Shown in pieces: positions 1-33,801 of a DNA stretch of 33,801 nt (positions within the stretch are counted from its first letter, which is position 1; each line of letters starts with the position of its first letter). The stretch comes from Polyangia bacterium. GTDB taxonomy: Bacteria; Myxococcota_A; Polyangia; Polyangiales; Sandaracinaceae. The notes beneath the pieces are model-generated. The model searched no databases and had not been told where the DNA came from. It worked only from the letters and a program-made list of their open reading frames with translations. The stretch spans positions 1-33,801 of the forward strand of contig JAUHXR010000063.1 in assembly GCA_030426845.1 (NCBI GenBank). The letters run 5' to 3'. Made by a program: the position numbers and the translations under genes.

Positions 1-1281
1 CGTCAGAAGGTGAATCTTGCCAGAATCATCCCGATACGCCACCGCCACCATCTGACTAACGGGATCGAAAGTAGCGGCGATGCCGCCTTGCCGAAGGACG
101 GGAAGGTTGTTCACTTGAGGCGCGTACTCCCACAGCGGACTCCCTCCCGCCGAGGTACTCACAGAATACGCCTGAATTAGCAGAGAGGAATCAGTCTCAG
201 GTGGGTACTTCGCCTGGAACAAGAAGGCTGCCTCTGGCTCGCCAGCCTGAGTTACCGACAAATAACCAATGGCCGGACCGACTTCCCACCCGTTCGTATG
301 CAGTTGCCAGTTGTCCCCGCGAACTGCAGACGACACCTGTGTGCCGGGGGCCTGATCAATCGGCGGCGAGCCGGCGGCCCAAAGCAGCTCACCGGGTGTG
401 CTGTTCAACCCGAACCGCGCATCGATGTGCGCCGCCAGGAATGGAGGTCTCCCAGAGGAGAATGAAACTCCGTCGTCGACAGTCTCTTGCCAAGGTCGAT
501 CGCCGACGCCGTAGAAGTGGTTAGTCTCTCCGGGGTACAGCTGGGCAGCGAGGAGACCATTGAGATCATCGGGGAGCCATCCTTCATAGATCTCAGCCGG
601 GGCTCCGGGGATCTCCATCACGTTGCATCCTGGCCTGGCGCACGAGATCACATTCGCAGTCGTATCGGGATCACATATGCTGGGGTCCCAGTTGTGGCCA
701 AGCCCAAGGGCATGGCCAAGCTCATGTAGGAGATTCGGCTCGAACGGGCCGTAGCCGGGTCCGAGCTGAGTGTGGGTCCAGTCATAGCAGTCGCCGAACG
801 GCGTACTCGGACTCTGCCGGGCCCAGAATCGGGCAATGTAGATAACTGAACCGTCCGTGTGAGTGTTCGATGGTGAGTAGTACTTGGACACGCACCAGTT
901 GGGACTTGTCGGAAGGATCGAGATCGCACCGGGAATAAGACAGTTCGGATCTTCGTCGACTGTGAGGTCACAGGCGGGGAGGCTGGGTACATCGCCCGCA
1001 AAATAGAACTGGGGGTGAACCCCAATGCGGGAGCTGCTGTTGGCCATGTCGAGGGTCCACCGCACCGCATCAACCAGTTCGCTATAGTGCCACTGCGTCC
1101 CGTCCGGGTGTCTCAAGTGAGAGAGGAGATCCGGATGGATGTAGACGGGAACAGCGTCCAGGTGATACCCGATGTACTCGGTGCCGTGATGCCCGGGCAA
1201 CAGGCAGTACGAATGGGCCTTCGGGGCGGGAATAAGCGCCAGGCCAACCAAGGCGACGAGCGCAGCAGCTCTCGTATTCAT
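1..1281 (-). CDS. Secreted metzincin-type zinc metalloprotease (C-terminus outside window)
   Basis: The frame is open from the ATG at 1281 to the window edge, giving 427 residues with no stop, so the C-terminus is missing. Residues 1-24 form a signal peptide (short basic start, hydrophobic run ending KAHS). The zinc site HELGHALGLGH is at residues 186-196, the extended HExxHxxGxxH motif of metzincins, and a possible Met-turn (CNVME) follows at about 219-223. Many cysteines around the active site suggest an extracellular, disulphide-bonded enzyme. The part after residue 300 is rich in short beta-like stretches and could be a substrate-binding or propeller-like domain. It is the last visible gene of a three-gene minus-strand operon and its ATG overlaps the preceding stop as ATGA. 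Base composition is clearly lower in GC than the phage genes (36 of 60 bases in the sample 661-720). Family assignment is firm; the substrate is unknown. Confidence 0.85.
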   Translation of the reverse strand, partial: MNTRAAALVALVGLALIPAPKAHSYCLLPGHHGTEYIGYHLDAVPVYIHPDLLSHLRHPDGTQWHYSELVDAVRWTLDMANSSSRIGVHPQFYFAGDVPSLPACDLTVDEDPNCLIPGAISILPTSPNWCVSKYYSPSNTHTDGSVIYIARFWARQSPSTPFGDCYDWTHTQLGPGYGPFEPNLLHELGHALGLGHNWDPSICDPDTTANVISCARPGCNVMEIPGAPAEIYEGWLPDDLNGLLAAQLYPGETNHFYGVGDRPWQETVDDGVSFSSGRPPFLAAHIDARFGLNSTPGELLWAAGSPPIDQAPGTQVSSAVRGDNWQLHTNGWEVGPAIGYLSVTQAGEPEAAFLFQAKYPPETDSSLLIQAYSVSTSAGGSPLWEYAPQVNNLPVLRQGGIAATFDPVSQMVAVAYRDDSGKIHLLT

Positions 1282-1721
1282 CGGAAGTCGTCTCCCGTGA
1301 CGGAGACTGGAAGCGGCGATTGCAGTACCTCGAAGTGATGTTGGTTCGCCCAGCGGGGTGCGCGAACATTGAACTGGGCCAATCGGCCGAGCGGGTATCG
1401 CGCTTCGGTAGCGCGCAGATCTAGAGTTGGGTGATGCAACGTCGCGGTGGACGAATCCGAAAGTCGCAGCAGGGTGACAACGTTCTCCTCATGACCGCAG
1501 CGTGGAGCCCAGACTGAGTGCGCGACAGGAACTCCAGTGAGTTGGGTGCCGTGGCCTGTTGTTGCTGCCGATGCGGGGAGATCAGTCACATCCACGCTGG
1601 TTCCAGTCGCGGGACTATCGCGCGACTCCCTGTGGCGCGGCGCTGAAGTCCAGCACCCTGCGAGTATCACGGCGGGCAACAGGATCCAGGGGCTGGCCTG
1701 CGCGAACTGGTGCGAGAGCAT
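1278..1721 (-). CDS. Small lipoprotein of unknown function
   Basis: 147 residues. The start at 1721 is chosen because GGAG lies six bases upstream and because it gives a textbook lipoprotein signal: a hydrophobic run (WILLPAVILAGC) with lipobox LAGC and the acylated cysteine at residue 23. A longer frame from 1802 would bury the signal and overlap the upstream gene. The mature part is polar, without recognisable domains, and contains one further pair-capable cysteine (PRCGHE). The stop overlaps the ATG of the metalloprotease gene (ATGA), so the two are probably translationally coupled. It may be a partner, chaperone or inhibitor of the protease, but nothing in the sequence proves that. Confidence 0.7.
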   Translation of the reverse strand: MLSHQFAQASPWILLPAVILAGCWTSAPRHRESRDSPATGTSVDVTDLPASAATTGHGTQLTGVPVAHSVWAPRCGHEENVVTLLRLSDSSTATLHHPTLDLRATEARYPLGRLAQFNVRAPRWANQHHFEVLQSPLPVSVTGDDFR

Positions 1722-1738
1722 TCGTGACTCCGAAGACG

Positions 1739-2368
1739 CTAGAGGTACAGGCTCGCCAGTGGCAAGCCGCGGTCCGCAGTTGTGCCGGCGCCTGAAACCC
1801 AATCGTTCTCCAGAGGTGCGGTCCAGCGCAAGAGATGGAGCGATGGGTCAGAAGCGTCGGGGGCCAAGAACAAGACCTGAGGCAGGCCTTCGTCGTGCAG
1901 GATGTGACCCCCGAGCAGCGCTTTGGCGCGCGGCAGTCCACCTGGGGTCCAGCCCTCGGAATCGCAGACAGGCGCCAAAGTCATCGAGTCTCCCACGTAA
2001 CGCCAGGGCCGCGGGGCCCGCACCGTGAGCTCGCTTGGAGCGTCTTCTCCGAGTGCGTCCGTAACCGTCATGATGGCCTGGACGAAAGAGTCAACGACCA
2101 CCAGGCCATCTGCTTCGGTCAACCGCTGGGCCTCACCAAGACTGGGCTCGGTGTCCGAGCCAAACTCCGCCACAACGACCAGCCCGCCCTCGGCCCGGAC
2201 CTCAGCCGCGAAGGTGTCAAGCTCGTCTGGTCGGGTGTTATCTGCTGGGGCGATGTTTCCTCGGTAGGCAGCCTCTGTCTCAGTGCAGGAGGGTGAGCAC
2301 GAGAACGACCCCGGCAGGCTCAGCGCCAAGACAACGAGAGTTCGAACTCTCGGCAGGAGATCAAGCAT
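1739..2368 (-). CDS. Exported, possibly lipid-anchored protein of unknown function
   Basis: 209 residues from the ATG at 2368. Residues 7-23 are a basic-then-hydrophobic signal segment followed by cysteines at 24 and 28; the sequence before C24 (GSFSC) is a weak lipobox, so lipidation is uncertain. The frame is open upstream to 2476, but that extension has no signal-like start and the internal ATG matches an export signal. The mature part is acidic with the mix expected of a soluble domain; no family was recognised. It is the first gene of the operon with the lipoprotein (17 bases downstream) and the metalloprotease, so all three probably act outside the cytoplasmic membrane. Confidence 0.7.
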   Translation of the reverse strand: MLDLLPRVRTLVVLALSLPGSFSCSPSCTETEAAYRGNIAPADNTRPDELDTFAAEVRAEGGLVVVAEFGSDTEPSLGEAQRLTEADGLVVVDSFVQAIMTVTDALGEDAPSELTVRAPRPWRYVGDSMTLAPVCDSEGWTPGGLPRAKALLGGHILHDEGLPQVLFLAPDASDPSLHLLRWTAPLENDWVSGAGTTADRGLPLASLYL

Positions 2369-2489
2369 GCGGGGACATCCAGGCAGAGTGAGTGGAGCGA
2401 TCGAGGGAAAGGAGCCGCGCAACATAGCTACCTGACTTCCGGGCGCACGTCGAGGGAGGCAGACGAAGCTCGACACGCTCGTCCCGGTT

Positions 2490-2693
2490 TCACGCGTTCG
2501 CTGGCACGAACCACCCGAACATAGTGACCTCGTCTCCGTCGTCGTAGACCCAGGTGGCCGCGGAGCTCCCGGGCGGCCACCCCGACGCGGGCGACGGCGT
2601 CGCGAGCACCCAGAGCTCGAGGCGGCCGAAGCGGACCGTGGCGCTCTTGGGCGGCGGCGGTCGGGCTACCTCGCTTGCCTCGGCTGCGCTCAC
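2490..2693 (-). CDS. Hypothetical 67-residue protein
   Basis: A short frame from a GTG at 2693 with AAGG five bases upstream. Its C-terminal part (FGRLELWVLATP, then WVYDDGDEVTMFGWFVPANA) reads like a folded beta-rich protein, and its codons end mostly in G or C, unlike the exported-protein operon to its left. The frame remains open for about 18 more codons upstream of the GTG, so the true start may be earlier at a non-canonical codon, or the gene may be a remnant. No family recognised. It sits exactly where the base composition jumps. Confidence 0.4.
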   Translation of the reverse strand: MSAAEASEVARPPPPKSATVRFGRLELWVLATPSPASGWPPGSSAATWVYDDGDEVTMFGWFVPANA

Positions 2694-2868: not shown

Positions 2869-3132
2869 ATGAGCGACAACGAAACCACCGAGATCGAGCG
2901 AGCGGCCGCGGCGGCCCTGGCGGCCGCCAACGCGTGGCGGGGCGAGCGCTGGTACGAGCCCGCGGACGTGGCGCTGACGCTCCGGCTGACCGGCGATCGC
3001 GCGCCGCGGGTCGCCGGCTGGGAGGCGCGCCTCGGCGGCGTGGAGGTCGCCGGCGCCGCGTCCGCGGAGATCGCGCTCGACGCGGTGGGCGACGTGTTCC
3101 GGGGGCTGGCCGCGAGCCGCGCGCCGCGCTGA
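2869..3132 (+). CDS. Hypothetical 87-residue acidic/Ala-rich protein
   Basis: The ATG at 2869 is preceded by GGAGGGG and is preferred over an in-frame start 17 codons earlier. The N-terminal half (TTEIERAAAAALAAANAWRG) is helical and the rest looks like an alpha-beta domain. No family recognised. It is the first plus-strand gene of the high-GC segment and is followed 98 bases later by the ribbon-helix-helix gene. It could be an early phage protein of small size; no function can be assigned. Confidence 0.6.
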   Translation: MSDNETTEIERAAAAALAAANAWRGERWYEPADVALTLRLTGDRAPRVAGWEARLGGVEVAGAASAEIALDAVGDVFRGLAASRAPR

Positions 3133-3895: not shown

Positions 3896-3984
3896 CAGCC
3901 CTGGACTTCCCCGCACGCAGAGCCATGTATGGACGCGCAACGGGAACGACGCCCAACACCTTGGGATCAAAGGGAAAAGCGAGA

Positions 3985-4872
3985 ATGAAGAGCCTCCGCT
4001 TCGGGATCGAGATCGAGACGGTCGGACAGCGCCGGCGCCGGGTCGCCGAGGCGATTCAGGAGGTCGTCGGCGGGGCGGTCGTCCACGCGGGCGCCCCGGC
4101 CTGCTACGACCCCTGGGACGTCATCGCGGAGGACGGGCGCCGCTGGCGCGTGATGGCCGACTCGAGCCTGAGCGCCGGCTTCGGGCGCCAGGCCGAGGTC
4201 GTCAGCCCGATCCTCCGCTACGAGGACATCGGCACCCTGCAGCGGATCGTCCGCGCGGTCCGGCGGGCGGGGGCGAGCGTCGACCCGACTTGCGGGATCC
4301 ACGTCCACGTCGACGGCGCGCGCTTCGACGCGAAGGCGGCCTGCAACCTCATCAAGCTCGTCAACAAGCAGGAGCGGCTGATCGAGCACGCGCTCGGCAT
4401 CGACCCGCTGCGGCGCGCCAGCTACGCGCGCGGGGTCAACCAGGACTTCCTCCAGCGCATCGAGCGGGAGCGCCCGCGCGACCTCGACGCGCTCAACCGC
4501 GCCTGGTACGGCCGCCTCAACCGCGCTCCGGTCCACTACGACCAGACGCGCTACCGCGGGGTGAACCTCCACAACCTCTGGTTCCGAGGCACGGTCGAGT
4601 ACCGCTACTTCGACAGCACGCTCCACGCGGGCAAGGTCAAGGCGTACGTCCAGTTCTGCCTCGCCCTGAGCGCGAAGGCGATCCACGCGAAGCGGGCGAT
4701 CAGCGCGCCGCGCCCCTTCGACCCCGCGACCAGCAAGTACGACTTCCGGTGCTTCCTCCTGCGCCTCGGCCTGATCGGGCCGGAGTTCAAGACCGCGCGG
4801 CTGCACCTGCTCTCGCGCCTCGGCGGCTCGGCCGCGTGGAAGGGCGAGCGGCGCGACGCCCCCGCGAGCTGA
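3985..4872 (+). CDS. Amidoligase-family ATP-dependent carboxylate-amine ligase
   Basis: 295 residues from ATG 3985. The N-terminal motif FGIEIE (6-11), ADSSLS (58-63), EVVSP (71-75), GIHVHVD (104-110), [10 protein letters not shown] (189-198) and [16 protein letters not shown] (203-218) are the ordered conserved blocks of the amidoligase family (glutamine-synthetase-like fold), which joins a carboxylate to an amine through ATP. Acidic residues in the first block and the HxH pair are expected to bind metal and ATP. An in-frame ATG 20 codons upstream exists, but homologous proteins begin close to FGIEIE. The next gene, 21 bases downstream, encodes two gamma-glutamylcyclotransferase domains, a pairing described for amidoligase neighbourhoods in phages and bacteria. 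The product is presumably a peptide or amine conjugate; its identity is unknown. Confidence 0.9.
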
Positions 4873-4893
4873 CCACCCCTTGGAGAAACGACC

Positions 4894-5715
4894 ATGGAGA
4901 CCGTCACCTACTTCGCCTTCGGCTCGAACCTCGACGCGGCGCAGATGCGCCGACGCTGCCCCACCGCCGCGGCGGTCGGCCCGGCGCGGCTCACGGGCTG
5001 GGCCCTCGCGTTCGCCGGACACAGCGCCACCTGGGGCGGCGGGGTGGCCACGGTCGTGCGCGCGCCCGGCGCGTCCGTCTCGGGCCTGCTCTGGCGGCTG
5101 CCGCGCGACGAGCTCAGCCGGCTCGACGCGTACGAGGGCTACCCGCGCGCGTACGAGCGCCGGCGGCTCCTGGTGAGCGCTCTGTCCGGTCGGCGTCGCG
5201 CCTACGTGTACCTCAAGCCCGACGCGCTCCTCAGCGCGCCCGCCGCCGCGTACGTCGATCAGATCCACGACGCGTACATCGAGCACGGGTTCGATCGCGG
5301 CCCGCTGCTCGGCGCGGTCCTGCGCGCGGTCCGGGCCCGGGCCACCGTGTTCGTCTACGGGACCCTCCGCGAGGGGGAGGCGAACCATCACCTCCTCGGC
5401 GGGCGGAGGCCGACCGCGCGGGCGCGCACCGAGGCGCGCTTCCGCCTGGCCCACCTGGGGGGCTTCCCGGCGATGGTCCGCGGGGGTGGCGCGCGCGTCG
5501 TCGGCGAGACCTACGAGGTCGACGGCCGGACGCTCGCGCGGCTCGACCAGCTCGAGGGTCACCCGCGGCTCTACCGGCGCCAGCGGATCCGCCTCGAGGG
5601 CGGGGGCGACGCGCTCGCCTACTTGCTTCCCCCCGCCATGGCGGCAGGGTTCCCGACCATCCGGTCCGGGGACTGGACGGACCGTGAGGAGGATCGACGA
5701 TGCGCATCCGCTTGA
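4894..5715 (+). CDS. Tandem gamma-glutamylcyclotransferase (GGCT/AIG2-like) protein
   Basis: 273 residues, with TTGGAG upstream of the ATG. There are two complete GGCT-like domains. Domain 1 begins YFAFGSNLDAAQM (6-18) and carries LDAYEGYP (78-84 region) with E81. Domain 2 begins VFVYGTLREG (152-161) and carries LDQLEGHP with E221. The FxYGS/T-L nucleotide-like loop and the glutamate after LDxx are the binding loop and the catalytic acid in this family, and both copies keep both. The family cyclises and releases gamma-glutamyl groups from amines as pyroglutamate. Next to an amidoligase it would trim, edit or recycle the ligated product. The two domains differ (FGSNL against YGTL), so they may act on different substrates. 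Confidence 0.9.
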   Translation: METVTYFAFGSNLDAAQMRRRCPTAAAVGPARLTGWALAFAGHSATWGGGVATVVRAPGASVSGLLWRLPRDELSRLDAYEGYPRAYERRRLLVSALSGRRRAYVYLKPDALLSAPAAAYVDQIHDAYIEHGFDRGPLLGAVLRAVRARATVFVYGTLREGEANHHLLGGRRPTARARTEARFRLAHLGGFPAMVRGGGARVVGETYEVDGRTLARLDQLEGHPRLYRRQRIRLEGGGDALAYLLPPAMAAGFPTIRSGDWTDREEDRRCASA

Positions 5716-5945
5716 ACGCCGACGGCCGCGTGCTGCAGGGCACCCCAGTTCAGATCGTCCAGGCCATGCACGCGATCGCGTTCGGCGCCGACGGACTCTC
5801 GCTGAGCGAGTACATCGACTGGGCGTGTGATCACGCGGGCCGCATGATGGGCGTGCAGCTAGAGATCGCGGAGGGCGCGGACGAGGAGCGCGCGGCCGCG
5901 TTCGTCGACGCGATGATCGAGCGCGAGCTCGCCGTGCGCCTCTAG
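5700..5945 (+). CDS. Small conserved-looking protein of the amidoligase cassette
   Basis: 81 residues. GAGGAGG lies eight bases before the ATG, and the gene overlaps the end of the GGCT gene by 16 bases, so it is almost certainly cotranslated. It has a beta-hairpin-like start (MRIRLNADGRVLQGTP) and then helices (IVQAMHAIAFG, LSEYIDWACDHAGRM), and a C-terminal acidic helix. No Pfam-like family could be named. It may be the modified peptide, a carrier or an adaptor of the amidoligase system; this is inference from overlap only. Its stop codon lies in the same CTAG as the stop of the opposing kinase gene. Confidence 0.7.
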   Translation: MRIRLNADGRVLQGTPVQIVQAMHAIAFGADGLSLSEYIDWACDHAGRMMGVQLEIAEGADEERAAAFVDAMIERELAVRL

Positions 5946-7687
5946 CCTCCGCTCGACGGGCCGCGCTCTCGCGCCGCGGTCCAGCCCGCGACGGAGGCGA
6001 CCACGAGCAGGCCGACCGCGGAGGCGACCGCGCCGAGCGCGCCCAGCCGGCTCAGCGCGGGCTCCACGCCCGCCGGCAAGCCTTCCAGCGTCGCCGCGGC
6101 CAGGGCGCAGCCGATCGAGGCGCAGAGCGCGACCGCCAGCGCGCCGGCGGCGAGCGCGAGCCACGGTCGACGAGCGCGGGCGCGCCGCGGCGACGGCGTC
6201 TGGTCGTCGAGCCCGGAGAGCACAGGCAAGCGAAGGTGCCGCCTCGCCAACGGGGGCGCGGCCCGCTCGACGCGCGCGGGGGCCGCGGGCGCGCCCGCGG
6301 TCTCGACCTGCTCCATCGCCGCCCGGCCCGCGGCGGCGCGCTCGCCGATCTCGAGGACGCCGCTCTCGCGGGTCACCGGGCGCGCGAGGATCGACTCGGG
6401 GAGGTCCACCAGCGGGAGGGCGTCGCGCGTCGTCGGGATCCCTGCGGGCGCGCCCGGTGCGTCGCGTGCGACCAGCCGGGGCGCGACGCCAGCCGGAGCA
6501 GGCGCGGCGAGCGCGGCGAGCTGGTCCGCGACCGCGGCGTCCACGAGGACCTCGTCGGGGAGCGCCGGGGTGCGCGCGCCCACGTCGACGGCGCGACGTC
6601 GCGCGTCGACCCGCGCCACGACCTCCCGGCAGTCGACGCGGCCGGCGGTCACGCGCTGCTCGAGGGGCGACTGGTGGAGGCGCACGCGCGCCCCGAGCGG
6701 GCGCTGGTCGACGCCACCCCTCAGCGAGCTGAGGGCGCTCAGGACCGCGTCGGCCGACTGGAACCGCTCGTCCGGGTCCGGCTCGAGCAGGCGATCCACG
6801 ATGTCGACGAGCGCGACGAGATCGGCCTCGGGCCCCTCGCTCGAGTAGAACTCGGGCCGGAGCTCTTGGACACGCGGGCGTTCGCGGCGCTGGACCTGAC
6901 GCAGGTGGCTCTCGACCGAGGCGCCCTTGAACGCGCGTCGCGCGGTGAGCGCCTCGAAGAGCAGGGCGCCGAGGCTGAACAGATCGAGCCGTGGCCCGTA
7001 GCGGCCGCGGTCGGCGTCGGTGAGGTACTCGGGCGCCGCGTACGCGACGCGGCCCGGATGAGCGCGCGAGGCGTACAGGCCGGACGCCTCGACCGCGCGC
7101 GCGAACCCGAAGTCGATCAGGAAGGCGTCGCCGCGCACGTCGATCATCGCGTTCGCGGGGCTGACGTCTCGGTGGACGATCGGTGGGTGGCGGTAGGGCG
7201 TCGCGAGCGCGCGGCAGTCCGCGTGCGCCTCGGCGAGGGCGCCCGCGAGGTCGCGCGCGACGCCGACGACCGCCTGCCAGGAGAGCAGCTGCCGCTCGGC
7301 GCGCATCTTCCGGATGAGCTGGCCGAGCGTCATCCCGTCGATGTACGCGAACACGAGGCACATCACGCCCTCGTCGTCGCTGAGCTCCACGGCGTCCTCG
7401 AGGTGCGCGATGTTCCCGGGCGGCAGCAGCCGCAGGACGTCCGCCTCGTTCTGGAAGATCCGCCGCACCTCGCGCGGCGAGAGCTCGGAGAGCAGGAGCG
7501 GGCTCGGGATCTTGAGGCACTTCAGCCGCTCGCTCCCGCGCGGTCCAGGCGCGCTGCCGATGAAGGTGCAGGCGGTGCCGCCGTGCCCCGTCTGGGCCCG
7601 GATCCGGAACGGGCCGACCCGCTCCGGCAGCCGGTAGGGCCCGACCGCGCGCGGGCTGAACAGCCGCGACGTCGTCGAGTCCGGCAT
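5942..7687 (-). CDS. Membrane-anchored Hanks-type Ser/Thr protein kinase
   Basis: 581 residues. The kinase domain spans about 26-320: a glycine loop (GHGGTAC, 34-40), the ATP lysine in LKCLKI (K59 or K56), the alpha-C glutamate E81, the catalytic loop HRDVSPANAM (172-181), IDFGFA (191-196) and AAPE (217-220). All catalytic residues appear intact. A proline/alanine-rich linker follows, then two hydrophobic segments near residues 513-575, suggesting a C-terminal membrane anchor with little outside the membrane. It ends a minus-strand operon whose previous gene is a sigma factor, five bases away, so phosphorylation of that sigma factor or its partner is a reasonable guess. Such kinases are typical of myxobacteria and are unusual inside phage replication modules. 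Confidence 0.93.
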   Translation of the reverse strand: MPDSTTSRLFSPRAVGPYRLPERVGPFRIRAQTGHGGTACTFIGSAPGPRGSERLKCLKIPSPLLLSELSPREVRRIFQNEADVLRLLPPGNIAHLEDAVELSDDEGVMCLVFAYIDGMTLGQLIRKMRAERQLLSWQAVVGVARDLAGALAEAHADCRALATPYRHPPIVHRDVSPANAMIDVRGDAFLIDFGFARAVEASGLYASRAHPGRVAYAAPEYLTDADRGRYGPRLDLFSLGALLFEALTARRAFKGASVESHLRQVQRRERPRVQELRPEFYSSEGPEADLVALVDIVDRLLEPDPDERFQSADAVLSALSSLRGGVDQRPLGARVRLHQSPLEQRVTAGRVDCREVVARVDARRRAVDVGARTPALPDEVLVDAAVADQLAALAAPAPAGVAPRLVARDAPGAPAGIPTTRDALPLVDLPESILARPVTRESGVLEIGERAAAGRAAMEQVETAGAPAAPARVERAAPPLARRHLRLPVLSGLDDQTPSPRRARARRPWLALAAGALAVALCASIGCALAAATLEGLPAGVEPALSRLGALGAVASAVGLLVVASVAGWTAARERGPSSGG

Positions 7688-25674: not shown

Positions 25675-27303
25675 TTGCTCGCGGTCGTCAAGCGGACCGA
25701 GGCCGAGCTGCTCGCGTACTTCGGCGCGGCGTCGGCGTTCGCCACGGGCGCGCTGCGCTACGACGGCGAGCCGCTCGCGCTCGAGTCCTACCAGCGGGCG
25801 TTCCTCGACGACCGCTCCACCTTCCGCTGGATCGTGAAGGCGCGGCAGGTCGGCTTCTCGTTCCTCTTCGCGATCGAGTGCCTCATCCGCTGCCACCTGG
25901 AGCCGAACTTCACCGCGATCTGCGTCTCGTACAACCACGCCGACGCGGTCGAGAAGGTCCGGGTCGCGCGCCAGCTCTACGAGGAGCTGCCCGCGCCGTA
26001 CCGCAAGCGGCTCGTCACCGACACGCGCACCGAGCTCGAGTTCGAGACGAACAGCGGCGCGCGCCGCGGGCGCTCGCGCATCGTGTCCGTTCCGAGCAAG
26101 CCCCCGCGCGGCAAGCACGGCACCGTCTACCTCGACGAGCTCGCGCACTACCAGGACGCGCGCAAGGTCTACGCGGGCACCACCGCGGCGATCGCGCGCG
26201 CGAAGGGCCAGCTCACCGCGGCGTCGACGCCGCTGGGCCGCCGCGGGCTGTTCTGGGAGGTCTGCGCCGAGGAGCTGCGCGCGTACCCCGGGCACGCTCG
26301 ACAGGCCGTGCCGTGGTGGGTCTGCACGTTCTTCTGCGTGGACGTCGGGCGCGCGGTCGTCGAGGCGCCGCTCATGGCCACCGAAGAGCGCGTCGAGCGC
26401 TTCGGGACCGAGGCGCTGCGCCACCAGCTCGAGTCGCTCGACCTCCTCGAGTTCCAGCAGGAGTTCGAGCTGAGCTTCGTCGCGGAGCGCCTCTCGTACT
26501 TCCCGTACGACCTGATCCTCGGCTGCACCGTCGGCGAGCTCGAGCTCGCCGAGGACTGGAGCCAGGTCCCCGTCCCCACCGGTCGCCTCGTCGCCGGCTA
26601 CGACGTCGGCCGGCGCGCGCACCGCAGCGCCCTCGCGCTGTTCGAGGAGCGGCCCGGGCCGCGCTTCGTGTGCCGGGCGCTCAAGCTGTACGACGACGTC
26701 CCGTTCGAGGAGCAGAAGGCGGAGCTCCGCGGGATGCTCGAGGCGCTCCCGATCGCGCGCTTCTCGATCGACGGCAACGGCATCGGCATGAACCTCGCGG
26801 AGGACCTCGGCCGCGAGTTCCCCCAGGTCGTCACCGAGCCGTCGAGCGGGCCCGCGAAGGAGCGCTGGGCGACGGACCTCAAGATCACCCTGCAGCGCAG
26901 GGCGGTCGAGCTCCCGCGCGAGCGCGGCCTGGTCGCGGAGATCCACTCGGTCGAGCGCCGCGTGAGCTCGAGCGGGCGCGTCTCGTTCGACTCGCCCGCG
27001 ACCTCGAAGGGGCACGCCGACCGGTTCTGGGCGATCGCGATGGCCTGTCAGAAGGAGCGGCAGGCGGAGGGCGGCGAGCTGCCCACCGTCCACGCGCGCG
27101 TCGTCGGCGGCGAGCGCGCGAGCTTCGAGCGCAGCCTCGACCGGCTGATCGGCTGGTCGCAGGGCGCGACGGAGGCGACCGCAGGTGAGGCCGAAGCGCC
27201 GGCGTCTCCCCGCGCGGGGCCGAAGCGGACCGCGGCGCGCCTCCCCCCCGCCGGCGCGGTGCGGCGAGGTCGACCCAAGGGCAGAAGCGAGAGGAGGGCG
27301 TGA
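25675..27303 (+). CDS. Phage terminase large subunit (TerL)
   Basis: 542 residues from TTG 25675, placed with no gap after the terS stop. ATPase: a degenerate Walker A KARQVGFS (55-62), Walker B TVYLDELAHY (150-159, D154 E155) and coupling motif AASTPLGRRG (182-191). Nuclease: VAGYDVGRRA (D310), FSIDGNGIG (D366) and KGHADRFWAI (D449), the three acidic metal ligands of the RNase-H-like domain. The enzyme translocates DNA into the prohead and cuts it. A Pro/Arg-rich tail follows from about residue 490. The nonclassical P-loop, with Gln-Val in place of GxxG, is common in terminases of this group. The gene is followed by a small frame overlapping by one base. Confidence 0.93.
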   Translation: MLAVVKRTEAELLAYFGAASAFATGALRYDGEPLALESYQRAFLDDRSTFRWIVKARQVGFSFLFAIECLIRCHLEPNFTAICVSYNHADAVEKVRVARQLYEELPAPYRKRLVTDTRTELEFETNSGARRGRSRIVSVPSKPPRGKHGTVYLDELAHYQDARKVYAGTTAAIARAKGQLTAASTPLGRRGLFWEVCAEELRAYPGHARQAVPWWVCTFFCVDVGRAVVEAPLMATEERVERFGTEALRHQLESLDLLEFQQEFELSFVAERLSYFPYDLILGCTVGELELAEDWSQVPVPTGRLVAGYDVGRRAHRSALALFEERPGPRFVCRALKLYDDVPFEEQKAELRGMLEALPIARFSIDGNGIGMNLAEDLGREFPQVVTEPSSGPAKERWATDLKITLQRRAVELPRERGLVAEIHSVERRVSSSGRVSFDSPATSKGHADRFWAIAMACQKERQAEGGELPTVHARVVGGERASFERSLDRLIGWSQGATEATAGEAEAPASPRAGPKRTAARLPPAGAVRRGRPKGRSERRA

Positions 27304-27508
27304 TGAGGCGACGGCTGCAGGTGTTCGTGATCGCGGCCGCGGAGGGGCCGAGCGGGTCGCCGCGGCCAGCGGACGACCGCGAGGTGGAGGCGCGCACCAC
27401 CGACGCCCTCCGCGAGGCCGCGCGCGCCGCGCTCGAGGCCGACGGCTACCGAGTCCGCGCGGTCTCATTCACCCCCGACGGCCTGGTCGCCTACGTCGAG
27501 GAGCGCGG

Positions 27509-27512
<4 letters not shown>
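27303..27512 (+). CDS. Small 69-residue protein between terminase and portal
   Basis: ATG 27303, with GGAGG upstream; a GTG directly before it overlaps the terL stop. The sequence (MRRRLQVFVIAAAEG, TTDALREAARAALEADGYRV, SFTPDGLVAYVEERG) looks like a small beta-alpha-beta fold. Its end overlaps the portal start as ATGA. Such small proteins often lie between TerL and portal genes; no function is known. Confidence 0.7.
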
Positions 27513-29104
<1,592 letters not shown>

Positions 29105-29221
29105 ACGGGGACCGAGTAGCAACCAGCGTTGCGTACATGGAGAAGGAAACTCCAAGGCAATCCCGGGAATCTGCGGTACCCTTATCGACGCTCAAGCTGT
29201 GAACCAATGTGCGGAGGACTC

Positions 29222-29587
29222 GTGAGCCCCGAACAACGACGCCGCGTAGAGAGAGTCCTTACTCGGATTGCCGAGGCACATGCTCCCGACGAGATGCTAC
29301 TTGTCGAGCATGTCGTAGCGAGCTTAGAAGCGATCAACCTGGCCGAACATGAGGCCGCGCTGTCCGCGGCGCCGGAGGACGCCGCGCCTGCGGGCGGTGG
29401 GCTACTAGCCGAGCTCGCTCCGCTCGTGGACGTCGTGCTGGTACCAATCATCAAGGGTGTCGCGTCTGGCACGGCCTCAGCACTTGTGGCCGTCGCCGCA
29501 CGGGAGGCGCTTCGTCGCCACCGCGCGGATCTTCCGGCCGCGAAGCAGGACGAGATCGCGGAGACGGTGGAGCGCGAACTCGAGTAG
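29222..29587 (+). CDS. 121-residue protein of the lower-GC insert
   Basis: GTG 29222 follows GGAGGAC; the longer frame upstream lacks a ribosome site. The N-terminal half is helical and charged (QRRRVERVLTRIAEAHAPDE), and residues about 60-95 form a glycine/hydrophobic helix (LVDVVLVPIIKGVASGTASA) that could touch a membrane. The C-terminus is charged. No family recognised. It is followed 41 bases later by a membrane M48-like protease with the same lower GC, so the two likely form one unit inserted between portal and the Dam-XkdF gene. Confidence 0.6.
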   Translation: MSPEQRRRVERVLTRIAEAHAPDEMLLVEHVVASLEAINLAEHEAALSAAPEDAAPAGGGLLAELAPLVDVVLVPIIKGVASGTASALVAVAAREALRRHRADLPAAKQDEIAETVERELE

Positions 29588-29628
29588 CGGCATCGCCCCC
29601 TCCCCACGCCGGCAGGGGGACTCATAAC

Positions 29629-31503
29629 ATGAACAGTGATACCGCGCTGTCGTCCCCAATTGCGGTGGCCATGCTCGGAAGCAGCGTGGTGGCGGGGGTT
29701 GGTCTCGAGCTAGGAATAGCCCGTGCGCACGGCGAGGGCTGGGTGCTTCTCCCGCTAGGTCTCTTCGCAGCAGTCTGCGCCCTTGGCTCTTGGCTGCAGT
29801 TGCGCGCCACCCAGAGCTCAGCGCCACGATGGCTCGCGAGGGCCGTCGGCATACGCCAGCTAGCTGGCGATCCCGCTCCGGCCGTCATTCGCGAGTTCGT
29901 TGGCAACAGACTCGCAGCTCACAGCGTGACCAACGTCGGCATCGACGTTGTGGTACTTCGGAAGCCAACGAGGGTAGTAGACGCGAGCGTAGCGGATGTC
30001 CCAGGCGGCCACGCCATTGTCCTCACGCGCCCGTGCTTGAGCCTTTGGCTACAGAACAGAGCGGCATTCTGCGCACTCGTAGACCACGAGGTGGCTCATG
30101 TTCTCGCGGGTGATGCGAGGACCTATCGTTGGTTTCGGATCCTCATCCTCGCTCCACTCGTTCTACTTCCATTTCGCTTGGTCCTCGCTGTTCTCTGGCC
30201 GGCTGAGTACGGGGCGCTCCTCTCACGATTGGCGCCCGGCCTCCTGCGCTACGAAGCCGTCGGAGAGTTCACCACAATTGGGGTCTCGCAGTCCAGCGCA
30301 GTCCACCAGCATGTGGAGCAAGTGCCTGGAATCGAGATCGCGAGCAGTCTACCTCTTTCCTGGTGGCTCGTACTGTTGGTTGTCGCGCTGACATCTGGGC
30401 TCCTGCTTGCGCAGGTGTATGCGTCCTTCCGCGCATACCTGAGGACAAGAGAGTTGCTGGCCGATGCCTTCGCCCTCAAGGCTGCCCCGGACCGCCGGAT
30501 TGCGTTCGAGGCGCTCGACAGTCTCATCCAGGACAACCACGGCGACCCCGGCCGCTCTGCTGGACTTTGGCACCCACCGGTAGCGGTGAGGAGAAAGGCC
30601 CTCGCAAACTCGCGAGACGGCTCCGTACCGAACACCGCCGCCGCCGGGCTTACGTTGGCACTGATTGCCCTTGCTGTATGTCGCCTCCTGGTCCTGGACC
30701 ATGATGCGGGCCGGCCGTGGCCGACACTGGGCGCCATCCTTCCATGGATCTTCGTTTTCTCAGTCCTTCTCATATGGCCGTTTCACACATCTCTGGTTAG
30801 AGAGGTGGGTGAACGCGGCTCGCCGATACGCCATATCCGGTGGTACGGGGTTCGACGTTCAGTCAGATCCTCAGCGCTAGCGGGGGTAATCTGCGCGCTG
30901 ATTCTGGCGCCGAGATGGATTCCCGACTTGCTCTTCTGGATCTGGAATCAGAACTCCACGATCGCTCCTGTTGTCGCCACACAGATTATTGATTCTCTCA
31001 TCTGCGCCGGATCACTTGCCGCGATGGGATTGATGTCCACTGCCGCGGTGATTGGCGCAACTGTTACGTTGAGACGGGCGCCGGTAGCCATTCATCTACT
31101 CGCTTCCGGCGCGAGTCTGACTCTGGCAACTCTAGTCGTTTCAGCCGGTGTTGTAGTTGGTGTCGTCGGCCCGTACAAGGAGGCGGCCTTTGACGAGTAT
31201 CAGACACGACAGGACGCCCTGATGATCGACCGTACAGGGTTGCCCCGGTCTGTCGTGGGTAACGCGGCCCATCTTGAGGCTCCTAACTCGGGTGAGGCCT
31301 TAGCCTTGCACATGTGCCAGGTGGCAGAGCGCCGAGCGATCGCGAATGCACTTCAGGACCAGCTCTTCTGGCCACCGCTCTTCTGGGTGCATCTCGATGA
31401 GCGCTTCCTGCGCGTTCAGAACTACGTAACTTCTGACGATCCACTGGGACGTCTCGCAGAGTGCACGGAGGGCTTCTTTCAGGCCGCTACCCACCGGGAA
31501 TAG
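29629..31503 (+). CDS. Multi-pass membrane M48-family zinc metalloprotease
   Basis: 624 residues from ATG 29629 (GGGGAC upstream). The active site HEVAH is at 153-157 within ALVDHEVAHVLAGDART, and the third zinc ligand is expected in RELLADAFAL (E275, with the ExxxD pattern of M48 enzymes). About eight to ten hydrophobic segments flank the catalytic region, two before it and most after. The protein is a relative of HtpX/Ste24-like membrane proteases. A sample (30361-30420) has 35 of 60 bases G/C against 46 of 60 in the terminase gene, so it was probably acquired separately. It interrupts the head operon; it could protect the lysogen from other phages or act on envelope proteins. Its targets are unknown. 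Confidence 0.85.
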   Translation: MNSDTALSSPIAVAMLGSSVVAGVGLELGIARAHGEGWVLLPLGLFAAVCALGSWLQLRATQSSAPRWLARAVGIRQLAGDPAPAVIREFVGNRLAAHSVTNVGIDVVVLRKPTRVVDASVADVPGGHAIVLTRPCLSLWLQNRAAFCALVDHEVAHVLAGDARTYRWFRILILAPLVLLPFRLVLAVLWPAEYGALLSRLAPGLLRYEAVGEFTTIGVSQSSAVHQHVEQVPGIEIASSLPLSWWLVLLVVALTSGLLLAQVYASFRAYLRTRELLADAFALKAAPDRRIAFEALDSLIQDNHGDPGRSAGLWHPPVAVRRKALANSRDGSVPNTAAAGLTLALIALAVCRLLVLDHDAGRPWPTLGAILPWIFVFSVLLIWPFHTSLVREVGERGSPIRHIRWYGVRRSVRSSALAGVICALILAPRWIPDLLFWIWNQNSTIAPVVATQIIDSLICAGSLAAMGLMSTAAVIGATVTLRRAPVAIHLLASGASLTLATLVVSAGVVVGVVGPYKEAAFDEYQTRQDALMIDRTGLPRSVVGNAAHLEAPNSGEALALHMCQVAERRAIANALQDQLFWPPLFWVHLDERFLRVQNYVTSDDPLGRLAECTEGFFQAATHRE

Positions 31504-31693
31504 AACCGAGCTGCATGGACGAGTGGCATCGGTGGTGCCGTCATCCCGCCTGACCACCGGAACATGGGCGAGAGGGACTTCTGCGACTGCCGGATTGTAG
31601 CTCCCCGTCAGGGGCCCCCGGACAGATTGTCCCGTTCTTTGCCTCCTCGCCTTTCCTCGTCCGAGACGCCGATGCCTGTCGGCCTCGAACGAT

Positions 31694-31885
31694 ATGCCGA
31701 GGACGCACGCCCTCCTTACATCCGATCCGCTCGCGCTGGACGCCCTCCGCCGCGCGGTCCGCCGCCTCCGGCGGGGCCTCCGCTCCTGCCGGAGCCGCTG
31801 GGCCGCGCGTCGGTTCAGCGCCGCGCTCGCGCACGCGGCCGACCACGCGACGACGCTCCGCTTCCCCGAGGACCCGCGCCGATGA
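31694..31885 (+). CDS. Small basic 63-residue protein before the Dam-XkdF gene
   Basis: ATG 31694 to TGA 31885, overlapping the next ATG by four bases. High-GC codons return here after the lower-GC insert. The protein is strongly basic and helical (LRRAVRRLRRGLRSCRSRWA). It has no strong ribosome site. The coupling overlap is the main support; no function assigned. Confidence 0.45.
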   Translation: MPRTHALLTSDPLALDALRRAVRRLRRGLRSCRSRWAARRFSAALAHAADHATTLRFPEDPRR

Positions 31886-33222
31886 GCGCGACCCTTGACG
31901 CGGCGCTCGCGCGCGCCCGGCTCGTCCTGGACGTCGCCTCGCGCGGCCCGATCGCCAAGACGATCTTCGCCAGCCCGGCGGGCAAGAAGCGGCTCGCGAA
32001 GCGGCTCGTGGCGATGCTTCCGGCGCACTCGACGTACGTCGAGCCGTTCGCGGGCTCCGCCGCGGTGCTCTTCGAGAAGGAGCCGTCCAGCGTCGAGGCG
32101 ATCAACGACGCGGACGCCGACATCGCGGAGGCGTACCGGCTCATCAAGCGGCTCAACCCGAGGAAGCTCGAGCGCCTCCGCCGGATGCGGTGGACCGGCG
32201 ACGAGGCGACGTACAAGCGGGTCTACTCCTCGAGCCCGAGCGGGGAGCTGGAGCGGCTGCACCGCTTCCTCTACCTCGCGACCTTCAGCTACGGGAAGCT
32301 CCGGGGGTCGTCGTTCAACCCCGGCTCCGCGGGCAAGGAGTCGCGCACGATGGCGCGGCTCGAGCAGAGCGCGCCGCGGCTCGCGAAGGTGCGCGTGCAC
32401 TCGGGCGACTACCTGAAGGTGGTCAAGCGCTACGACGGCGCGGGCACCGCGTTCTTCTTCGACCCGCCGTACGCCGGCTACGACGTCAACGTCGGCGAGT
32501 CGAGGTTCGACGAGGAGCGCTTCTACGAGGTGCTCAAGGGCCTCCGCGGGGAGTTCCTGCTGACCTACGGCATCCGCGGGAAGCTGCCCGGCCTCCTCAA
32601 GGGGTCGGGCTTCCACATCCAGCGCGTGCGCACGCCGCGCGGCATCCGATCGATGCGCGGGGTCGGCGGCTCGAGCGTCCTGACGCAGCTCGTCGTCACG
32701 AACTACGCGCCGCCGACCCGGAAGGACGGCTGGCTCGAGCCGTGGGACGGACAGCTCGAGCTCGGCGACCACGTCCCGACGGTCGGCCCGTCCACCACGA
32801 CGGAGGGCGCCTTCGCCAAGTCGATCCCGCTCCTCAAGGGCGCGGACCCCGCGGACGAGCGGTTCGTGTTCGGGGTGGTGCTCGAGCCGGAGACGGTGGA
32901 CGCGCAGGGCGACGTCTACTCAGCCGACGAGGTCCGCAAGGCCGCGCACCGCTTCATGGAGGAGTACCGCGGCCTCGGCCTCCAGCATCAGCTCCGGGTC
33001 AACGACCAGGTGAAGATCCTCGAGAGCTTCATCGCCCCCGTGGACTTCGGCGTCGGCGACGTGGCCGTCAAGAAGGGCACATGGCTCCTCGCGGTGCGCG
33101 TGCTGTCCGACGCGCTGTGGGCGCGGGTCGCCGAGGGCAGCCTCACCGGCTTCTCGATCGGCGGCTCGGCGCGGAAGGTGCCGGAGCCCACCGCGCGCCG
33201 GGAGGCCGAGGGCGCGGCGTGA
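31882..33222 (+). CDS. DNA adenine methylase fused to XkdF-like prohead protease
   Basis: 446 residues. N-terminal half (about 20-280): a D12-class (Dam-type) adenine-N6 methyltransferase with the AdoMet loop YVEPFAGSAAVLF (52-64) and catalytic FFDPPYAG (192-199). C-terminal half (about 325-430): the XkdF/peptidase S78-like capsid protease, with FVFGVVLEPETVDAQGDVYS (328-347), H369 in GLQHQ and S425 in LTGFSIGGSA, likely the catalytic pair. The methylase would mark the phage genome, for example against host restriction, and the protease cleaves head proteins during maturation. The joining of both in one chain right after the portal genes is notable. There is no stop or frameshift between them. 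Activity of each half is inferred from motifs. Confidence 0.88.
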   Translation: MSATLDAALARARLVLDVASRGPIAKTIFASPAGKKRLAKRLVAMLPAHSTYVEPFAGSAAVLFEKEPSSVEAINDADADIAEAYRLIKRLNPRKLERLRRMRWTGDEATYKRVYSSSPSGELERLHRFLYLATFSYGKLRGSSFNPGSAGKESRTMARLEQSAPRLAKVRVHSGDYLKVVKRYDGAGTAFFFDPPYAGYDVNVGESRFDEERFYEVLKGLRGEFLLTYGIRGKLPGLLKGSGFHIQRVRTPRGIRSMRGVGGSSVLTQLVVTNYAPPTRKDGWLEPWDGQLELGDHVPTVGPSTTTEGAFAKSIPLLKGADPADERFVFGVVLEPETVDAQGDVYSADEVRKAAHRFMEEYRGLGLQHQLRVNDQVKILESFIAPVDFGVGDVAVKKGTWLLAVRVLSDALWARVAEGSLTGFSIGGSARKVPEPTARREAEGAA

Positions 33223-33801
33223 GCGCGCGCGATCGGGGCGTCCACCGGCTGATCGAGATCGTCGTCGAGGAGGTGAGCCTCGTCGACCGCGCGGCCAACA
33301 ACCACCGCTTCCTGATCGTGAAGCGCGCCGAGGGAGAGAGCGACCACGCCATGGCAGATCTGAACGAGACCCACGACGACGACGAGCTCGACGACGACGA
33401 CCCGTCGCCAGAGGGCGCCCCTGCGGCGACGCCCGCGCTGGAGGTCGCGACCAAGGCGCTCGCCGCGCTCACCGACGCGGTCGAGGCGCTGGGGGCGGGC
33501 GCGCAGGACGCAGGGGCCGTGTCGAAGGTGTCGGGCGAGCTCCGCGCCGCGGCCGACGACCTGGCCAGGCTCGCGGGCGCCCCGCCCGCCGAGGACCCCG
33601 CCGCGCGCGACGACGCGAGCGCGCTGGAGTCGGTCCGGGCGTCGCTCACGCAGGTCCGCGAGCTGCTCAGCCACCGGCAGCGGGCGCGCCGGCGCGAGGA
33701 TCTCGTGGCGAGCGAGGCCGACGCCCTGACGGAGGTGGCCACCCATGAGCACCTGGCCGTGCTGCGCCGCGAGCTCAACGGCCTGGTCGCCGCCTGGCAC
33801 C
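33219..33801 (+). CDS. Phage head protein downstream of the protease (partial, open at window end)
   Basis: From GTG 33219, overlapping the previous TGA as GTGA, open for 194 codons to the edge. It begins VHRLIEIVVEEVSLVDRAAN, which matches the IxEVSLVDxAAN segment usually found near the start of prohead proteases and XkdF-like proteins, then an acidic stretch (HDDDELDDDDPSPEG) and a long Ala/Leu-rich coiled coil. This is the look of a scaffold or of a head protein with a cleaved N-terminus. The real C-terminus and therefore family are outside the window. Confidence 0.7.
   Translation, partial: MSARDRGVHRLIEIVVEEVSLVDRAANNHRFLIVKRAEGESDHAMADLNETHDDDELDDDDPSPEGAPAATPALEVATKALAALTDAVEALGAGAQDAGAVSKVSGELRAAADDLARLAGAPPAEDPAARDDASALESVRASLTQVRELLSHRQRARRREDLVASEADALTEVATHEHLAVLRRELNGLVAAWH

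Follow-up and report, generated by a model that had tools for sequence, protein, structure and literature searches.

A probably foreign gene pair with an M48-type metalloprotease in the place of a MuF gene: candidate defence cargo in a prophage head operon

The question raised by this locus is how two genes of low GC content, one of them encoding an M48-type metalloprotease, came to stand in the head operon of a prophage, and what they might do there. The stretch of DNA analysed, referred to here as the window, comprises 33,801 nucleotides and is an entire contig (C112) of a draft genome of 9.4 Mb. Its prophage encodes a large serine recombinase and a helicase, followed by genes for the terminase and the portal protein, then by the block at issue and a gene that joins a D12 methyltransferase to an XkdF-type protease (Table 1). 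A preliminary description had named the downstream neighbour a protease gene, which is right for one of its domains but misses the fusion to a methyltransferase. An alternative start of the fusion gene at 31564 is probably unused, since the GC3 upstream of 31891 in frame is 0.69 and the similarity of relatives begins only at the position of 31894. In some relatives of the fusion gene (L036, L037) the methyltransferase occurs in tandem duplicate copies. The 63-aa frame ahead of the fusion gene gave no match to the small frame found at that place in relatives. A matching capsid gene is located on contig C330 of the same genome (G000), whose long open frames we read as contractile-tail genes from the sequences themselves rather than by family search. 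The ends of C112 and C330 share no overlap, and their junction was deduced from the gene order of relatives.

Several other genes of the prophage and its surroundings deserve mention. On C330, a second lower-GC gene of the same prophage (L090:8263-9369, 368 aa), on the strand opposite to the tail genes, has a borderline HNH_5 match (27.3 bits against a cut-off of 27.5) and is probably another moron. The left contig end (window 1-2500) is also low in GC and contains a minus-strand gene of 427 aa with a sub-threshold matrixin match and a codon usage as foreign as that of the protease pair. Near the left end of the prophage (window 3925-7687), Amidoligase_2 is encoded at 3925-4872 and, on the minus strand, a protein kinase at 5942-7687.

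Table 1. Features of the head operon and of the low-GC block within it (positions in the window).
Feature	Position	Strand	Basis or remark
Terminase large subunit	25675..27303	+	Terminase_6N/6C, PHROG terminase
Portal protein	27509..29104	+	Phage_portal/portal_PBSX
Low-GC leader ahead of the pair	29105..29221	+	sequence
121-aa helical protein	29222..29587	+	GTG start, GGAGG upstream; no known family
624-aa polytopic M48-type metalloprotease	29629..31503	+	ATG start; PF01435, motifs, hydrophobic segments
Low-GC trailer of the block	31504..31693		weak terminator-like stem 31620-31632, at chance level
Reading frame, 63 aa	31694..31885	+	phage-like composition, GC3 0.91; overlaps next start
D12 adenine methyltransferase fused to XkdF-type head protease	31891..33222	+	PF02086, PF14550, phrog_13242

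The lower GC content claimed for some 2.6 kb between the two phage genes (29105-31693) was borne out at 0.62 against 0.73. Across 29000-31700 the GC falls from about 0.72 to 0.57-0.66, and a two-changepoint fit over 25675-33801 delimits a block of 28995-31729 with a GC of 0.622 versus 0.728, gaining 46.6 in log-likelihood where 200 triplet shuffles reached 8.2 at most. All 285 overlapping 2.4-kb segments, taken from six contigs sampled in this genome and from the second prophage contig, exceed the GC of the block (minimum 0.681). In codon usage the two block genes lie at distances of 1.77 and 1.98, compared to 0.54-0.72 for ten phage genes, and the longest open frame in the block spans 716 codons, compared to a maximum of 443 among 1000 Markov simulations. 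Both genes are arranged in tandem on the plus strand, the one for the 121-aa protein first, with 41 bases between them. A promoter scan of the block found no sigma-70-like promoter for the pair, its terminator-like sites are at chance level, and no repeats pairing the block edges were found.

The edges were located, as had been proposed, by comparison with relatives. In IMG/VR, 17 relatives of the methyltransferase-protease gene were found, and several genomes of the same phylum have relatives as well; the comparison set consisted of the window and 28 other stretches. Homology ends in the portal C-terminus (about 29086) and returns at the methyltransferase start (31891), so that the exchanged stretch covers about 29087-31890. 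A MuF-like gene stands between portal and methyltransferase in all 13 loci with both flanks (L019-L025, L027-L029, L032, L036, L039) and the protease pair in none of them; the same genes with matching GC in all relatives, which would have spoken against a foreign origin, were thus not what was found. Five loci with the methyltransferase side only (L026, L031, L038, L048, L097) carry MuF upstream and two with the portal side only (L092, L095) carry it downstream. No MuF was seen at eight loci, among which L030 has 352 bp upstream, the methyltransferases of L033-L035 reach only 34-36 percent, L037 and L050 have little or other sequence upstream before the contig end, and in L091 and L096 the contig ends at the portal or close to it. 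The MuF-like identity follows from matches to a PHROG minor head protein, with Pfam Mu F below threshold (23.6 versus 29.6 bits). In Rhizobium phage RHph_I4, too, a protein that is annotated for head morphogenesis and matches MuF (at 37403) comes after the portal gene (35107-36420).

The block had been described as an insert, and a foreign block is indeed present, but it has displaced three things that relatives carry: the tail of the portal, a small gene and MuF. A simple insertion into an unchanged operon is ruled out, as relatives have MuF and a longer portal there. The portal protein ends 9 residues past TLAGIQ here and about 70-110 residues past TLAGI(Q) in the ten relatives compared. A MuF model built from six relatives found no MuF in the window or elsewhere in the genome, and neither did an earlier search up to E 10; the same model detected MuF in G010, G043, G033, G241 and G374 at E 1.3e-16 or better as positive controls and gave weak scores only in G105. 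On the evidence of the shortened portal and of a MuF model that is blank in this genome and matches in relatives, the block is read as a replacement for the end of the portal, for MuF, for the small frame overlapping the methyltransferase start and for the small gene with cysteines that relatives usually have. Relocation of MuF within the genome was not found with these positive controls, while a gap between contigs of the draft could still hide it. Foreign composition between conserved phage genes together with absence from relatives is what characterizes a moron, and the moron reading put forward earlier agrees with the defence-like or resistance genes found at this place in other relatives. 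Taken together, it is very probable that the block is of foreign origin and has replaced phage genes. It is most improbable that two sequences were wrongly joined here: the draft, judged here from the assembly itself, consists of 538 contigs with a contamination of 1.88 percent and changes composition at both block ends, but the contig that encloses the block measures 33.8 kb, the M48 gene occurs as a single copy in the genome, and both edges are close to gene ends, at a site of variation among relatives.

What the exchange means for the phage can be approached through MuF-type proteins studied elsewhere. Gp7 of SPP1 is required for efficient infection according to the title of a reference cited in PMC5576092, and a TP901-1 mutant in a gp7-like gene was suggested to assemble full virions, with a defect that was not efficiently complemented, in the accessible part of PMC4493119. 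From these two cases, the phage studied here may assemble yet infect poorly. The loss of portal tail and MuF would also fit a decayed prophage that was grounded by this loss and into which the pair merely recombined as passenger DNA. We consider this distinctly unlikely, as the reading frames of the pair and of the phage genes beside it are open, and long open frames are also present for capsid and tail on C330.

In this prophage family, the stretch from MuF to the methyltransferase is, to judge from its contents in relatives, an accessory slot. Measured at 18 loci, the two genes lie between 144 and 2958 bp apart. In L022, the slot holds a minus-strand gene matching PADLOC HEC-07 candidates (3.2e-27), flanked by a 128-nt direct repeat (2936-3063 and 4635-4762, 88 percent) of the MuF end that suggests how cargo enters; a literature search found no paper joining HEC-07 with PADLOC. 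Other slots contain a reverse transcriptase gene, group II intron-like by eye (L038:6159-8243), a 387-aa minus-strand gene without a family (L039), two minus-strand frames without a family (L019) and a gene of 273 aa whose match to ParB-type proteins is weak (L032). After MuF in L095 (1-3025) follow genes for MerB, for a protein with an HMA domain and for a MerA-like oxidoreductase, which together are probably a mercury-resistance set; in L037 (9664-10659) a sigma-54 activator adjoins the methyltransferase. L095 and L037 are the two ends of one 109-kb contig, both in the slot and without overlap, so that the Mer genes are only putative neighbours of the methyltransferase in L037. Between portal and MuF, L027 carries a glycosyltransferase (Pfam GT4-conflict, 26.4 against a cut-off of 26) that is conserved in L028 and L029. 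Downstream of MuF, the cargo of relatives is mostly on the opposite strand, whereas the protease pair runs along the head operon. In the literature, MuF comes immediately after the portal and MuF toxins are described from temperate phages (available text of PMC5576092), so accessory functions are known from this position.

The larger protein had been taken for a membrane M48 protease, and its assignment to M48 is supported. It matches the Pfam M48 model (PF01435) with 27.4 bits at a cut-off of 20.3 (23.8 bits against the M48 model in the genome search), and the residues singled out for mutation, H153 and E154, fall in a HEVAH motif (153-157) followed by ELLAD (275-279) and HPP (at 315), so that both HExxH and the downstream glutamate ligand are present. 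A simple hydropathy scan gives about nine hydrophobic regions; an AlphaFold model made without an alignment has a mean pLDDT of 40. Most likely the protein would sit in the inner membrane and cut protein through its M48 zinc site. It shares with peptidases of the HtpX/Ste24 type the HExxH, the ExxAD third-ligand motif, the HP motif and hydrophobic segments around the catalytic part, but differs in its weak score, and its length of 624 aa, with a C-terminal extension and several additional hydrophobic segments. Pfam gives no family beyond M48, NCBIfam, PHROGs and PADLOC give none, and a PDB sequence search returned 0 matches at E up to 1.

Relatives of the 624-aa protein were sought, together with those of its partner, in a few hundred sampled genomes and by exact-pattern scans, which would miss distant relatives. 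The 624-aa protein had no relative in 50,697 phage records, in 72,556 plasmid records or in IMG/VR, where the first step was an exact-pattern scan; sets of 56 and 282 genomes gave its own match and nothing else. Among 183 genomes of the order, there were besides its own match six weak partial matches (E 0.001-0.008), with an HExxH string in some long frame at three of the six loci. A search of genome contigs yielded first nothing and then one distant M48 protein in an Omnitrophica bin, whose upstream gene is, by eye, unlike the 121-aa protein. No paper on an M48 metalloprotease as a prophage moron was found in a literature search. Membrane M48 proteases generally carry their site within a polytopic protein, as this one does, which would also suit lysogenic conversion of the host envelope: an HtpX-like protease would serve quality control or alter the surface, the small protein would be its adaptor, and the role would not be specifically antiviral. 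This is unlikely in our view, as the other M48 genes of the genome score better against the model and phmmer found no similarity between the 624-aa protein and the frames of 21 loci (20 M48 loci of this genome and relatives, and L094).

The 121-aa protein has a single hydrophobic segment (residues 59-77 in the hydropathy scan) and an all-helical model of low confidence (mean pLDDT 52). It has no match in Pfam, NCBIfam, PHROGs or PADLOC, and no relatives besides its own match in 377 genomes, nor any in IMG/VR or plasmids. Adjacent genes with the small partner first could form a toxin-immunity or toxin-antitoxin pair, in which one protein harms cells and the other neutralises it, stabilising the prophage or discriminating against kin without the pair. 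Toxin-immunity loci are carried by Myxococcus prophages according to the accessible part of a review (PMC10047993), and the two frames in the slot of L019 could be seen in the same way, but neither protein matches known toxin or immunity families and a polytopic protease of 624 aa is unlike the usual compact toxins, which makes such a pair improbable.

Among known systems, the Lit protease of prophage e14 is a prophage-borne HExxH protease that excludes other phages; the block protein shares this setting and motif but matches only M48, with no Lit family in the Pfam scan. Pfam, which holds an EACC1 model, gives no family for the small protein and only M48 for the large one. EACC1, a two-gene membrane conflict system, resembles the pair in its small 5' gene with one membrane segment and its larger protease gene, but its second protein bears a caspase domain instead of M48 in the text available (PMC7159879). 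In RRDM of EPEC, a functional defence island, an M48 metallopeptidase gene is carried alongside anti-phage genes within a mobile region. It belongs to a set of seven genes in that island, together with type I R-M and DarTG and without an assigned share in the accessible part of the report (PMC12255303), whereas the block has only the small partner. MuF polymorphic toxins, as outlined in the same available text (PMC5576092), share the position directly after the portal and an accessory function riding on the head module, but have MuF N-terminal to the toxin, while here the MuF gene is gone from window and genome, not extended. Neither RRDM nor EACC1 is a family match to the pair.

In the mechanism that we infer, from membrane location and pairing of the proteins through proteolysis to defence, the 121-aa helical protein, encoded just upstream, would keep the inner-membrane protease silent or trigger it; infection by another phage or membrane damage would free the protease, which would cleave a host or phage protein through its M48 zinc site, stopping the infection and protecting the lysogen. 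The defence or envelope-acting role suggested at the outset is plausible. The pair is most likely moron cargo that serves defence or exclusion by means of a membrane protease, and the swap may have grounded the prophage that carries it. As a whole, this explanation of foreign replacement by a lysogen-protecting protease pair is the one we favour, if tentatively, and the defence role with its division into regulator and effector is doubtful enough to be offered as a suggestion. A toxin-immunity pair, conversion of the envelope and passenger DNA are to be taken seriously as rivals. The foreign composition and codon usage, the presence of MuF and absence of the pair in the 13 loci, the loss of MuF here, the variable slot with HEC-07, reverse transcriptase, Mer and GT4-conflict genes, the intact M48 motifs and the RRDM precedent argue for it. 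Against it, the PADLOC 2023 system models gave 0 families for both proteins, conservation of the pair as a unit is not demonstrable as no relatives were found, the cargo of relatives is mostly on the opposite strand, and the scan gave no promoter-like site for the pair. The pair could instead be expressed late, in the direction of the head operon, and stand in for the ejection-type protein MuF, acting at the membrane in lysis, packaging or entry or excluding other phages during virion production; this seems very unlikely, and if true it would be an effector module replacing MuF and not fused to it.

Beyond the protease pair, a protease candidate for which no relatives were found, the slot between MuF and the methyltransferase-protease gene is a place to seek undescribed defence genes within a prophage family that is represented among IMG/VR contigs and in genomes from the phylum of the window. 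Here the cargo displaced a minor head gene, which makes it testable whether the gain of cargo grounds the phage.
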